A DNA stretch of 13,836 bases from Halobacteria archaeon (GTDB lineage: Archaea; Halobacteriota; Methanoliparia; Methanoliparales; Methanoliparaceae). Location: contig DUJX01000134.1 in the NCBI GenBank assembly GCA_013329575.1, positions 1-13,836 of the forward strand, read 5' to 3'. Both the position numbers and the translations under genes were made by a program. A model generated the notes under the pieces. The model did not search any database and had not been told where the DNA came from. It saw only the letters and a program-made list of their open reading frames with translations. This document shows, one piece after another, positions 6,471-13,278 of this stretch. Positions within the stretch are counted from its first letter, which is position 1. Every line of letters begins with the position of its first letter.

Positions 6471-6593
6471 CGATTCTCACATTAGATTCTTTGATCTGTG
6501 ACTTTCAACCATAAGAATATGCAGATGGGGTTTATGCCTGTCGGGATTGAAAAACATCTGTTTTAAAATTAAATTAAAAAATGTCGTGTGAAG
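6471..6593. other. Intergenic region before the hexuloisomerase gene
   Basis: A 123-nt spacer that holds a degenerate copy of the hairpin module found between ilvN and ilvC (listed separately), followed by an AT-rich stretch (6561-6582) that ends just before the start codon. Confidence 0.6.
6487..6566 (+). repeat. Degenerate copy of the ilvC-leader hairpin module
   Basis: This 80-nt block begins TTCTTT like the modules at 11981 and 12123 and ends with GGATTGAAAAACAT (6544-6557) followed by CTGTTTTAA, almost matching the end of module 2 (12189-12212). Similarity is clear by eye from GCAG at 6521 through GGTTTA, CCT and the terminal stem, and weak before that. The terminal stem AAAACA (6551-6556) / TGTTTT (6559-6564) is kept; the upstream stems are largely lost. 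It ends 27 nt before the next start codon, comparable to the 19 nt before ilvC. Confidence 0.55.
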
Positions 6594-9763: not shown

Positions 9764-11467
9764 ATGCCTAAAAAAGAGAGAATGAAAGGAACAAAGATCG
9801 TAGTCGAATCACTGATGGATGAGGGGGTAGAATACATATTCGGTATTCCGGGTGGTTCTATAATACCACTATACGACGAATATTATGATTCAGATATAAA
9901 ACATATCCTTATGAGACATGAACAAGCGGCTGCTCATGCTGCAGATGGATATGCCAGATCTACTGGTAGAACCGGTGTATGCACCGCTACATCAGGCCCC
10001 GGTGCCACAAATCTTGTTACAGGAATTGCAACCGCATACATGGATTCCGTGCCAATGGTTGCCTTGACAGGGCAGGTACCGACTACGTCTATCGGTAACG
10101 ATGCGTTTCAAGAGGCAGATATTACAGGGATAACCCTCTCTATTACTAAACATAACTATCTCGTGAAGGATGTAAACGAGTTACAAAGGATCATAAAAGA
10201 GGCATTTTATATTGCTTCTACCGGAAGGCCCGGACCAGTATTGATAGATCTACCTAAAGATGTCCAAACCGGAGATGCAGAGTATAATCCCGAGACTACC
10301 GTAAATCTGAGAGGGTATAAACCGACTTACAAAGGGCATCCTGCCCAGATAAAAAAAGCTGCAGATATGATAATAGCCGCAGAAAGGCCTGTCATAATAG
10401 CCGGTGGTGGAGTAACGATATCTGGTGCAAATAAAGAACTTATAAATTTGGCAGAGTTGTTAAATATACCCGTTGCTACGACGATAATGGGTAAAGGCAC
10501 TTTTCCAGAGGACCACCTATTATCACTAGGTATATTGGGAATGCATGGTACTAAATATGCTAACTATTCTGTATCAGGTTCGGATCTTATTATTGCCATA
10601 GGTACACGATTTAGTGATAGGGTAACAGGAGATGTAAGTAGATTTGCATCCGATGCAAAGATAATCCATATAGATATAGATCCTGCCGAGATAGGAAAGA
10701 ATGTACGGGTAGATCTTCCCATCGTGGGAGATTCTAAGAATATCCTTAATTCATTGGTAAGTGTTTTAAAAACAAACATCAGCAAAGAGACAAAGTACAA
10801 AAACTGGCTTGATAAGGTAACTACATGGAAGAAAGAGTATCCATTATATTTTGATAAGAAAGCAGATACATTAAAGCCGCAATACGTCATAAAAAAGTTA
10901 TATGAGGCGACGAACGGGGATGCGATCATGGTTACAGAGGTGGGACAACACCAGATGTGGACTGCACAATACTATCTTTGTAAAAATCCTCGGCAGTTTA
11001 TATCATCTGGTGGACTTGGTACTATGGGATATGGTTTTCCTGCATCACTCGGAGTAAAAATGGGACTGCCGGATAGATTAGTATTTGATGTGGCAGGAGA
11101 CGGAAGTTTTCAGATGAATTGCCAGGAACTCGCCACAGCCGTTCAAAACAATATCGATGTTAAGGTTGCAATAATAAATAACGGCTATCTGGGTATGGTA
11201 AGACAATGGCAAGAATTATTTTATAATAGAAGATACTCAAATACGAGACTCGGATATCTGCCAGATTTTGTAAAATTTGCAGAATCATATAATGCAAAAG
11301 GTATAAGAGTTACAAAGAAGAGTGAAGTTGAGGATGCAATAAAAGAGGCAGTTAAGCACGATGGCCCCGTTTTGATAGATTTTAGAGTGGAAGAGGAAGA
11401 AAATGTGTTTCCTATGGTCCCTGCAGGTGCGCCTCTAACAAACATACTCGAGGTTGATAAGATATGA
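9764..11467 (+). CDS. ilvB: Acetolactate synthase large (catalytic) subunit
   Basis: 567 aa, normal. This ThDP- and FAD-dependent enzyme makes 2-acetolactate from two pyruvates (valine/leucine) or 2-aceto-2-hydroxybutyrate from pyruvate and 2-oxobutyrate (isoleucine). Seen: an N-terminal Pyr domain with FGIPGGSI (26-33) and the cofactor-activating Glu53 in [15 protein letters not shown]; the [12 protein letters not shown] stretch (76-87); a central FAD domain about 190-345; and a C-terminal ThDP/Mg motif running from GDGSF (445-449) to [12 protein letters not shown] (472-483). These N-terminal and C-terminal residues distinguish a working AHAS from other ThDP enzymes. ATG 9764 has GTGAT about 6 nt upstream; ATG 9782 is a second possibility and would start [11 protein letters not shown], more like many homologues. 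It overlaps ilvN by ATGA. Confidence 0.96.
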
Positions 11468-11970
11468 AACATGTCTTGGCAGCATTGGTAGAGAATAAGC
11501 CGGGTACCCTTGCAAGGATACTTAATCTGTTTAGACGACGGGGGTTTAATATAGAGAGTGCTGCTGTTGGAGAAACGGATGATCCTGAGATATCACGGCT
11601 GACTATTGTGGTTAATGGGGACAACAATGTGGTTGAACAGGTAATAAAGCAGCTAAATAAGCTTATTGAGGTAATAAAAGTCAGTAATTTATCACAAGAT
11701 ACGATGGTGGGCAGAGAACTGGCAATAATAAAAGTAGCTGTAGATAAAGAGACGATGGGTGAAATAATCGGTTTATCAGAGATATTTAGGGCAAAGATAA
11801 TAGATGTATCTATGAAATCTTTGGTAATAGAGATAACAGGCGATGAGGATAAGGTAAATGCGTTCGTAGACGTTATGCGGCGGTTTGGTATCAAAGAAAT
11901 GGCACGGACTGGGTTAGTTGCTCTTGCGAGAGGACCAAAAGCGACGAAAGTGGAAAAAGAGGAGGTATAA
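11464..11970 (+). CDS. ilvN: Acetolactate synthase small (regulatory) subunit
   Basis: 168 aa, the usual archaeal/bacterial IlvN/IlvH size. It activates IlvB and passes on feedback inhibition, normally by valine. Seen: an N-terminal ACT domain (about 2-77) with [15 protein letters not shown] (9-23), the segment that binds the amino acid effector, and [12 protein letters not shown] (25-36); a C-terminal ALS_ss_C domain (about 84-157). The acidic/basic tail [10 protein letters not shown] is short. The ATG lies in a 4-nt ATGA overlap with ilvB, with GAGGTTGAT 5 nt upstream, so the subunits are probably made in fixed ratio. It is followed by the 321-nt hairpin-rich gap before ilvC. Confidence 0.96.
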
Positions 11971-11980
11971 AAAACAGATG

Positions 11981-12070
11981 TTCTTTACTCCCGTCCTGCA
12001 CAATGCAGGACTGCTATTACGCAGTATAACCGTAGGCTATACAGGATTAAAAAACTTGTGGGTTTTTAAA
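11981..12070 (+). repeat. Hairpin module, copy 1 (90 nt)
   Basis: In order: lead TTCTTTACTC; stem GTCCTGCA (11993-12000) / TGCAGGAC (12004-12011), a perfect 8-bp stem with loop CAA; stem ACTGC (12010-12014) / GCAGT (12021-12025) with loop TATTAC; stem GTATAACC (12024-12031) / GGCTATAC (12035-12042) with one A-C mismatch and loop GTA; then AGGATTAAAAAAC and the terminal stem AAAAAC (12050-12055) / GTTTTT (12062-12067). Adjacent stems share their edge bases, so not all form at full length together. The first 34 nt match copy 2 at 30 positions. Confidence 0.75.
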
Positions 12071-12078
12071 ATAGATGT

Positions 12079-12121
12079 TTCACGAATCTTCAATTCGTGG
12101 ACCATAAACCCTCGGTTTGTG
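12079..12121 (+). other. Two extra hairpins in the spacer between modules
   Basis: CACGAAT (12081-12087) pairs with ATTCGTG (12093-12099) around loop CTTCA and extends by a T-G and a T-A pair to 12079-12101. CATAAACC (12103-12110) pairs with GGTTTGTG (12114-12121) around loop CTC with one T-G pair. Neither stem has a counterpart in the other modules. Confidence 0.65.
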
Positions 12122-12122
12122 A

Positions 12123-12212
12123 TTCTTTACTCACGTCCTCTACAAGGCAGGACTGCGATCCCACGCAGTGTAGGTTTAATCCTACACAGGATTAAAAAAC
12201 ATTTGTTTTTAA
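12123..12212 (+). repeat. Hairpin module, copy 2 (90 nt), with two competing stems
   Basis: Same layout as copy 1. Lead TTCTTTACTC; a shortened stem GTCCT (12135-12139) / AGGAC (12149-12153); stem ACTGCG (12152-12157) / CGCAGT (12164-12169); stem GTGTAGG (12168-12174) / CCTACAC (12181-12187) with loop TTTAAT; terminal stem AAAAACA (12195-12201) / TGTTTTT (12204-12210). A second perfect 9-bp stem, TTTAATCCT (12175-12183) / AGGATTAAA (12188-12196), uses bases of both the preceding and the following stems and so excludes them. Confidence 0.75.
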
Positions 12213-12272
12213 GGACTGCTATTACGCAGTGTAGCCATAGGCTACAATAGATTTTAAAAACATTTTGTTTTC
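12213..12272 (+). repeat. Hairpin module, partial copy 3
   Basis: It lacks the TTCTTTACTC lead and first stem. It begins with an 18-nt sequence identical to 12008-12025 (GGACTGCTATTACGCAGT at 12213-12230), continues with the perfect stem TGTAGCC (12230-12236) / GGCTACA (12240-12246) around loop ATA, and ends in AAAACA (12257-12262) / TGTTTT (12266-12271), immediately before the ilvC ribosome binding site. Confidence 0.7.
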
Positions 12273-12278
12273 AAAAAT

Positions 12279-12284
12279 GGAGGT
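12279..12284 (+). promoter_or_regulatory. Ribosome binding site that fixes the ilvC start
   Basis: GGAGGT, 7 nt before ATG 12292. It lies inside a longer frame that could begin at TTG 12265 or ATG 12277, and it decides for 12292. The flanking sequence GTTTTCAAAA(A)TGG occurs on both sides of it (12267-12280 and 12283-12295). Confidence 0.8.
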
Positions 12285-12291
12285 TTTCAAA

Positions 12292-13278
12292 ATGGCTAAG
12301 ATATACTATGATAAAGATGTGAAATTAGATGTATTAAAGGGAAAGAAGATTGCCGTAATAGGCTATGGAAGTCAAGGAAGGCATCAAGCATTGAACATGA
12401 AAGATTCTGGATTTGACGTAATTATTGGTCAAAGAGAGGGAAAATCTGCTGATGATGCAAGAAAAGATGGGTTTGAGGTAGTATCAGCTGTAGATGCTGC
12501 AAAAAAGGGAGATTTAATAATTCTCACCGTACCAGATGAGCTGCATGAGTCGATCTATAACGAGATAAAAAGCAATATTACAGAGGGAAAGGCGCTCGGT
12601 GTATGTCACGGATTCAGTATTCTTTACGGATTGATAAACCCGCCAGAAAATATAGATGTAGTAATGATTGCACCAAAGGCGCCTGGACCGACTGTTAGAA
12701 GTACTTATGTTGGCGGATCGGGCGTTCCATCTGCCATTGCCGTGTATCAAGATTATACTGGCAAGGCTTTACAAAAAGCGTTGGCATGGGGTCATGCTAT
12801 CGGTTCTGGACGAGTAGGTATAATAGAAACAACGTTTGCAGAAGAGGTTGAGACGGATCTTTTTGGAGAGATCACAGTCTTATGTGGTGGAGTAGCGGAA
12901 CTGATCAAAGCAGGATTCGAAACGCTTGTAGATGCAGGATATCAACCAGAGATCGCTTATTTTGAATGTTGTAACGAACTTAAGCTGATCGTAGACCTGA
13001 TATACAACGGCGGGCTCGAGAATATGTGGTATTCTGTCAGTAATACTGCCGAGTACGGGGGCAGGATATACGGAAAAGAGATCATCGATGATTCAGTAAA
13101 AGAGAACATGAGAGATATGATCGATTTTATAAGAAGCGGACGGTACGGACGTGACGTAATATTAGAACAGAGAACAAATATGAACCAACTAAAGAGATAC
13201 AGGGAACTTGAAAAGGATGAGCTAATAGAGGTAGTAGGTAAAAAATTAAGGGGTATGATGAAGAGAGGAAAGGAATAA
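12292..13278 (+). CDS. ilvC: Ketol-acid reductoisomerase (class I)
   Basis: 328 aa, the class I (short) length. It converts 2-acetolactate or 2-aceto-2-hydroxybutyrate to the dihydroxy acid with Mg2+ and NAD(P)H. Seen: a Rossmann domain with GYGSQGRHQALNMKDSG (24-40), a specificity loop around 45-58 (GQREGKSADDARKD), then the all-helical domain with metal/substrate residues Asp189 and Glu193 (ETDLFGE), Glu225 and Glu229 (YFECCNELKLIVDLIYNGG), and the SVSNTAEYG stretch (248-256) with the substrate-binding Ser. Some usual positions differ: HGFSILYG instead of the common HGFNIHFG, and APKAPGPTVRSTY instead of APKGPGHTVR. Those point to a divergent clade rather than an inactive enzyme. The start is ATG 12292. 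It is separated from ilvN by the hairpin array; rpl15e follows after 3 nt. Confidence 0.95.
   Translation: MAKIYYDKDVKLDVLKGKKIAVIGYGSQGRHQALNMKDSGFDVIIGQREGKSADDARKDGFEVVSAVDAAKKGDLIILTVPDELHESIYNEIKSNITEGKALGVCHGFSILYGLINPPENIDVVMIAPKAPGPTVRSTYVGGSGVPSAIAVYQDYTGKALQKALAWGHAIGSGRVGIIETTFAEEVETDLFGEITVLCGGVAELIKAGFETLVDAGYQPEIAYFECCNELKLIVDLIYNGGLENMWYSVSNTAEYGGRIYGKEIIDDSVKENMRDMIDFIRSGRYGRDVILEQRTNMNQLKRYRELEKDELIEVVGKKLRGMMKRGKE

Follow-up and report, generated by a model that had tools for sequence, protein, structure and literature searches.

An array between ilvN and ilvC of a Methanoliparia archaeon as a probable compound of mobile hairpin DNA elements

Introduction

Short hairpin elements that carry no gene, such as the GC clusters of mitochondria and the palindromes of Rickettsia, move in ways that are unsettled or unknown. 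REP/BIME elements, which are moved by RAYT, are short dispersed hairpins and often occur in pairs. According to one paper, the GC42 cluster of yeast mitochondria is a palindrome of 42 nt flanked by AG or ACT repeats, the GC clusters merge and shuffle into compounds, a 48-nt cluster lies in the var (rps3) gene, and the mechanism of their amplification is unsettled (PMC4478555). Rickettsia palindromic elements (RPE) are described as palindromic repeats inserted in frame in unrelated genes, where they give rise to extra peptides (PMC10969869).

Here we describe an array of hairpins between ilvN and ilvC in the window, i.e., the whole stretch of 13,836 nt that was analysed, and assign a probability of about 0.8 to the reading that mobile hairpin DNA elements of Methanoliparia have combined to form this array. 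The elements are dispersed, they are absent between ilvN and ilvC in relatives, they carry target repeats, and they are found nested in one another and inserted in frame in genes. Their mobility is read from sequence comparison, not from movement observed directly. A sequence-only reading of the window had proposed that the array sets separate expression of ilvC and had named a mobile palindromic repeat as the alternative; dispersed copies, empty sites in relatives and target duplications speak for the alternative. A search of open-licence papers on Methanoliparum and Methanoliparia, PMC6703427 included, revealed no account of these elements.

Host and comparison genomes

The window genome (G000) is an assembly of 1.24 Mb in 162 contigs. 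Its ilvC is 90% identical to that of Ca. Methanoliparum thermophilum NM1a and 79% identical to those of three Methanolliviera genomes, and the host is an oil-seep archaeon of the Methanoliparia, probably another species of Methanoliparum. We compared it with Ca. M. thermophilum (G001), a member of the same genus, and with three Methanolliviera genomes (G002-G004). Together with G000, these are referred to below as the five family genomes; they are 75-91% complete, so that the absence of a gene from any of them is soft.

The array and its units

The gap between ilvN (acetolactate synthase small subunit, 11464..11970; NCBIfam TIGR00119, 211 bits) and ilvC (ketol-acid reductoisomerase, 12292..13278; NCBIfam PRK05479, 473 bits) is 321 nt long and is occupied by three related units; both genes and all features given below for the gap are on the + strand. 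An array of repeated hairpin modules had been noticed here from the letters alone, and it is confirmed by three repeat pairs of 37 nt (11981/12123, 86%), 65 nt (12007/12212, 75%) and 29 nt (12037/12182, 83%) and by the folding of the 292-nt array (-94.7 kcal/mol, z -7.5), which none of 200 shuffles equalled. Perfect hairpins (arm of 7 or more, loop of 3-6) number 13 in the 13.8-kb window, four of them in this 0.3-kb gap, while 20 shuffled windows contained a mean of 3.6 and a maximum of 7 per entire window. No named RNA family had been recognised from the letters, and the window gave no match at the Rfam gathering score among the 4227 families searched.

Unit 1 (11969..12071) consists of an outer stem formed by its ends and two 19-nt hairpins within, and is matched at 11968-12066 with 94.7 bits by the covariance model R1, the training set of which included unit 1 and part of unit 2. 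Its first hairpin, GTCCTGCA-CAA-TGCAGGAC (11993..12011, 8 bp, 3-nt loop), was found by the perfect-hairpin scan, and its second, GTATAACC-GTA-GGCTATAC (12024..12042, one mismatch), by folding. Unit 2 (12068..12212; R1 match 12110-12211, 74.2 bits) is split by a nested double hairpin of 43 nt (12080..12122), which reads T + CACGAATCTTCAATTCGTG + GAC + CATAAACCCTCGGTTTGTG + A with 7/8 pairs in each hairpin, and which has the 2-nt target repeat TT on its left (12078..12079) and on its right (12123..12124). Folding gave two internal hairpins of unit 2, at 12135..12153 and at 12168..12187 (GTGTAGG..CCTACAC). Unit 3 (12213..12272) is partial, comprising the inner part and the right end, an arrangement that recurs in the window genome at L009 and, tandemly repeated, at L011. 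When the nested element and one TT were removed in silico, the arm of unit 2 was restored, and units 1 and 2 became identical at 80 of 102 aligned positions.

The outline drawn from the letters alone stood in part. Units 1 and 2 do match at 30 of their 34 starting positions, the identity of units 1 and 3 over 18 nt holds (19 identical nt were found), and there are indeed two full units and one partial one. The array begins at the ilvN stop, near 11969, and not at 11981; the unit measures about 100 nt with inverted-repeat ends instead of 90 nt; and what had been taken for a spacer before unit 2 is the left end of that unit (12068-12079) followed by the nested element (12080-12122). A weak remnant of the big, ~100-nt element (...GGGATTGAAAAACATCTGTTTT) was also seen elsewhere in the window, at 6477-6566, between an amino-acid-kinase gene and an SIS gene (R1 E 0.19; blastn 23 nt, E 0.66).

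The ilvN-ilvC site in relatives

Between ilvN and ilvC, Ca. M. thermophilum has 3 nt and each of the three Methanolliviera genomes 28 nt, vs. 321 nt in the window, and the array is absent from this gap in all four relatives (G001-G004). In the window, GGAGG lies upstream of ilvC (12279..12283). An ilvC leader resembling TGGAGGTTTT also occurs in Methanolliviera, with GGAG at an equal distance from ilvC, and the GGAGG and leader of the window therefore most likely antedate the insertion. The similar leader in Methanolliviera led us to give up the idea of a decayed 25-bp target repeat at the window. Downstream of ilvC in Methanolliviera, one genome has a copy of the small, 43-nt element and another has the site empty.

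The big element and its dispersal

The ends of a big-element unit pair (GTTCTTYACTCC with GGAGTGAAGAAC), and a TGC..GCA stretch lies between its two inner hairpins, each of ~19 nt. In the alignment A2, of which the rows were hand-picked, the terminal inverted repeats form a 12-bp stem (columns 15-26/82-93) with 83% of cells paired. Six single copies were folded: L022, L010 and L013 join their ends across the inner hairpins, unit 1 of the window does so more weakly, and L015 and L016 favour separate hairpins over joined ends. Covariation among eight rows was weak (0.153 vs. 0.125 in shuffles, of which 17/500 were as high).

The search of the genome by BLASTN and the covariance model showed that the modules are not confined to ilvN-ilvC. 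Blastn against the window genome returned 23 matches with an E of 1 or less, including the window itself and chance-level ones, and R1, built from eight copies of which two were from the window, gave 20 places at E 0.01 or better, with two overlapping pairs (C67, C80) counted apart. In the family search, with a cutoff of E 0.1, R1 matched seven places in G001 and none in G002-G004. The motif GTTCTTYAMTC discriminates poorly, with 21 matches in G000 and 13 in G001, yet 20 in the unrelated G026.

At L011:670-806 (C67 of G000), the inner modules of the big element stand in tandem with a period of 63 nt, indicating that units grow by local duplication too. A further hairpin module, GCAGGAACC..GGTTCTGC with GGAGGT alongside, was seen in several copies in G001 (L083-L093) and on C109 of G000 (L094).

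Target duplications and empty sites of the big element

Target repeats of 25 bp are longer than usual for most insertion sequences. The flanks of ten copies of the big element were examined for direct repeats: an exact repeat of 25 bp was found at two (L012 and L016) and a 9-nt match at one, while the other seven had no flanking repeat scoring 9 or more; no long target repeat was found at the window copy in this test. In 247 kb of G000 sequence (some loci represented twice), once repeats inside elements and in coding stretches were set aside, L012 and L016 were the only element-flanking repeat pairs, and 400 kb of G001 gave no long repeat flanking an element.

Five sites of the big element were looked up in relatives. 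The target of L012 is present once in G001, and its junction is unfilled in two Methanolliviera genomes; the target of L016, which itself lies at a contig end, is likewise present once in G001. The L013 site is empty in G001, with no clear long repeat; the L009 site contains a small hairpin in G001; and at L014, G001 also has hairpins between both flanks, the site thus being filled. On reading the L012 and L016 targets in G001, we found that the stop of the upstream gene overlaps the start region of the downstream gene. A 25-bp duplication at overlapping junctions means that each gene retains its own copy of the joint, and its occurrence at two such junctions suggests a way for the big element to enter a compact operon and leave both genes intact.

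The small double-hairpin element

The clue to a second, smaller element was the stretch of 41 nt that separates units 1 and 2 of the window, with its two 8-bp hairpins (7/8 paired) and 3-nt loops. This small element, which forms a family in its own right, is 43 nt long (46 nt in the spacer-4 form) and consists of two 19-nt hairpins, the arms of which, e.g., CACAAATC/GATTTGTG, are AT-rich. The five family genomes contain the motif CACRAATC-loop-GATTYGTG at 2, 23, 10, 5, and 7 places, respectively, and the other 26 of the 31 archaeal genomes searched do not contain it; loops of 1-5 nt were allowed, and all places listed have a 3-nt loop. On reading the 24 motif places fetched from G001-G004, 23 have a second hairpin 2-6 nt away, often of different sequence.

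A 400-kb sample of G001, chosen by position, contains 12 strict double hairpins, of which 11 have a spacer of 3, and a 206.5-kb sample of G000 contains two; six of the 20 contigs in the G000 sample had been selected because of their big elements or other matches. The two found in 924 kb of unrelated contigs have spacers of 0 and 9, outside the range of 2-6. For perfect hairpins (8-9 bp, 3-nt loop), the count in G001 exceeds that of shuffles (35 vs. 7.6 in 400 kb); no excess was seen in the G000 sample (6 in 220 kb; control 34 in 924 kb). Twenty-six hand-chosen copies align free of internal gaps, with both-side changes at 11 of 16 pairs vs. 3.7 in shuffles; most rows of this alignment (A3) come from a scan that demanded pairing, so that the percentage paired arises partly by construction.

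The boundaries are sharp. Of the copies with a spacer of 3, 23/28 fit the form (XY) T [41 nt] A (XY), compared with a maximum of 15 and a mean of 9.4 in 500 partner shuffles; 16 offset pairs were tried in this test. The nested copy of the window (12078-12124) follows the same form as TT T[41]A TT. Because some copies share flanks through sitting in copies of one compound, spacer-3 look-alikes were grouped by shared flank words, and the repeat was then present in a member of 15 of 19 groups and in all members of 14. Copies with a spacer of 4, ten of the 12 being from Methanolliviera, fit (XY) NN [42 nt] NN (XY) in 8/12 cases (shuffle maximum 7) and in 6/9 groups. The nine copies with a spacer of 6 gave no repeat signal (best 4, shuffles up to 6); spacers of 2 and 5 occur in four copies each. 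The 2-nt repeat is missing at the valS copies and at one of the two tmk copies described below. A 3-nt target repeat, read at one time from a few genes, was replaced by the 2-nt repeat that the shift test favoured. With these boundaries and the 2-nt repeat, the net gain per insertion is 45 nt, or 48 nt. Longer arrays were seen in Methanolliviera (L202, L203, L219), with four or more 19-nt hairpins and spacers of mostly 4-6 nt.

Insertions of the small element in genes

In the regions fetched for the exact motif, seven of 24 places lie within open frames, one of these frames being only 105 aa. In the 400-kb sample of G001, three of 12 double hairpins lie within genes, namely those of tmk, the archaellum ATPase FlaI, and a methanogen-type thymidylate synthase. 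Orthologs were compared for five insertions in four genes (tmk, cofE, iorA, and valS), FlaI and thymidylate synthase being left out, and all five insertions kept the frame; their hosts are sister species of the window organism. The cofE gene has gained 45 nt in G001 and is insertion-free in G000 and G002-G004; tmk has gained 45 nt twice in G001 and is insertion-free in G000. A gain of 45 nt in iorA of G001 is missing from two Methanolliviera genomes, the alignment of the third stopping there, and no iorA ortholog was found in G000. The valS gene has gained 48 nt in G002 and G004 and is insertion-free in G003. In G000, valS (L246) carries another, distinct pair of small hairpins at the position of this 48-nt element, likewise in frame; the two may have arrived there independently.

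Both inserts are also present in a tmk that is 99% identical and is attributed by one source to Ca. Methanoliparum sp. LAM-1; the protein cluster to which it belongs has a longest contig of 1.25 Mb. Of the 120 listed hits, 13 were aligned, and among the others of these, P0004 has a 16-residue insert absent from its near twin P0002, and P0009 and P0010 have a similar peptide at a third site. The AlphaFold model of the tmk with both inserts has a mean pLDDT of 83; most of the kinase is over 90, the first insert is mostly below 50, and the second falls in blocks of 73 and 62. We read both inserts as predicted loops on a normal kinase fold. One register per strand is open in 19 and 22 of the 26 small-element copies, and the open-frame total is weakly above that of structure-keeping shuffles on equal rows (60 vs. 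50.5; 22/500 as high).

Candidate mobilisers and alternative explanations

No mobilising enzyme was found in these genomes. Y1 transposase domains (RAYT-type, Y1_Tnp) gave 0, 0, 0, 1, and 2 matches in G000-G004, reverse transcriptase domains 0, 0, 0, 1, and 0, and Cas1 2, 0, 1, 1, and 2, in genomes that are 75-91% complete; none of the three is present in all five genomes, and all were rejected as mobilisers. In G003, a DDE_Tnp_4 transposase gene has two double hairpins inside its open frame (L208/L293), and partial matches suggest shortened derivatives of this insertion sequence in G002-G004. As a mobiliser it was rejected, for no related ends were seen and the inverted-repeat search found no ends for L293. 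A viral source was rejected as well: two viral pattern scans gave one hit and none, and the single hit, inside an open frame of a phage-like contig and with its second end not seen, is read as chance.

The strongest alternative is that the elements are classical MITEs, i.e., internally deleted derivatives of a DNA transposon moved in trans by a DDE transposase. The big element is small, has inverted-repeat ends and shows target repeats at two places, and a DDE transposase gene is present in G000 and G003. The one insertion sequence inspected (L293 of G003), however, has no end sequence resembling the elements, and the 43-nt element is wholly made of two hairpins whose arm sequences vary among copies while the pairing is kept, unlike the fixed ends of a transposon. 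We regard this explanation as possible yet doubtful.

Spread through an RNA copy, in which a hairpin RNA is reverse-transcribed or ligated into DNA, appears less probable still. PMC2800124 and PMC4478555 discuss a route of this kind for hairpin elements of mitochondria, and it would suit both the paired changes that preserve structure and the merging and nesting of the elements; against it, only one of the five genomes has a reverse transcriptase domain, and a constant 2-nt repeat better fits a staggered cut in DNA.

It is very improbable that the array is a regulatory RNA or a processing element that uncouples the expression of ilvC from that of ilvBN. It fills the gap, it is strongly structured (z -7.5) and it contains T-rich stretches, all of which would be in keeping with such a role, but it has no Rfam match and related copies occupy about 20 places in the genome. 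The conservation test of a separate ilvC expression module failed, since none of the four relatives with ilvN-ilvC synteny has the array, and the regulatory reading is thus not supported by conservation as judged from these genomes. The dispersal of the element and its absence from this site in all four were our grounds for discarding a regulatory RNA that serves ilvC alone. The array is expected to be a tolerated passenger rather than an evolved switch, and a putative side effect on ilvC expression is possible.

Misassembly of, or local slippage in, a genome recovered from a metagenome hardly merits belief. One might cite for it the 162 contigs of the window genome and the 25-bp case at a contig end; against it, the small hairpin is present in five assemblies, LAM-1 is listed with a tmk that has both inserts, and the empty sites agree with the target repeats.

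A model for the array as a compound of mobile elements

On our preferred reading of a compound of mobile hairpin elements, a ~100-nt element would have inserted at the ilvN-ilvC junction, on the simplest account once the lineage had separated from that of Ca. M. thermophilum. The big element would then have acquired the second unit and the partial third unit, and the 43-nt double hairpin would subsequently have struck the second unit. We infer that the small element is inserted in DNA form where the two strands are cut 2 nt apart; filling in of this stagger would leave the 2-nt repeat, and a candidate enzyme acting in trans would carry out the insertion. A net length of 45 nt (48 nt in Methanolliviera) would allow it to settle in genes with the frame unshifted. 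The big element would duplicate ~25 bp at least sometimes, leaving each gene of a tight junction its copy of the joint.

Tentatively, and at odds that we would put below even, one may go further: a gene-less hairpin DNA of 43 nt would spread in the genomes of archaea, with a 2-nt target repeat at its insertions and with a net length adjusted to a multiple of three, and would in this way have placed loops of 15-16 residues in core enzymes again and again. It would represent a class of minimal mobile elements that emerged separately in mitochondria and in archaea, and it would be moved by general host repair or endonuclease activity, not by a dedicated transposase. What appears to be an archaeal family has sharply defined ends, a 2-nt repeat that is nearly constant, close relatives in which sites are empty, and in-frame insertions in tmk, cofE, iorA, and valS, and it makes the movement mode of hairpin insertions and their effect on proteins testable.

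Comparison with known systems

The big element resembles a MITE in being short and in its inverted-repeat ends; a 25-bp target repeat flanks two of the ten copies examined and not the window copy, and the one insertion sequence inspected did not show itself to be a parent transposon. REP/BIME elements and their RAYT differ in that no Y1 domain was found in G000, G001, or G002, and in that copies of the small element lie inside genes and have target repeats. The small element is like the RPE in lying in frame within conserved genes (tmk twice, cofE, iorA, and valS); compared by description only, the RPE are of ~150 bp and belong to Rickettsia, whereas the small element measures 43-46 nt, has a 2-nt target repeat and is archaeal.

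Like the GC42 cluster, the small element is short (43 nt, or 46 nt with a spacer of 4), forms hairpins, is flanked by 2-nt repeats, enters compounds and has copies within genes, a likeness for which no shared sequence is claimed. It differs from the GC clusters in residing in an archaeal chromosome, in its arms, which are rich in AT and not in GC, in its hairpins of mostly 8 bp with a 3-nt loop, and in having hit several conserved genes. By these comparisons, the small element belongs to neither the GC clusters nor the RPE, from which it differs in size, sequence context or host, and it appears to work most like the GC42 cluster of yeast mitochondria.
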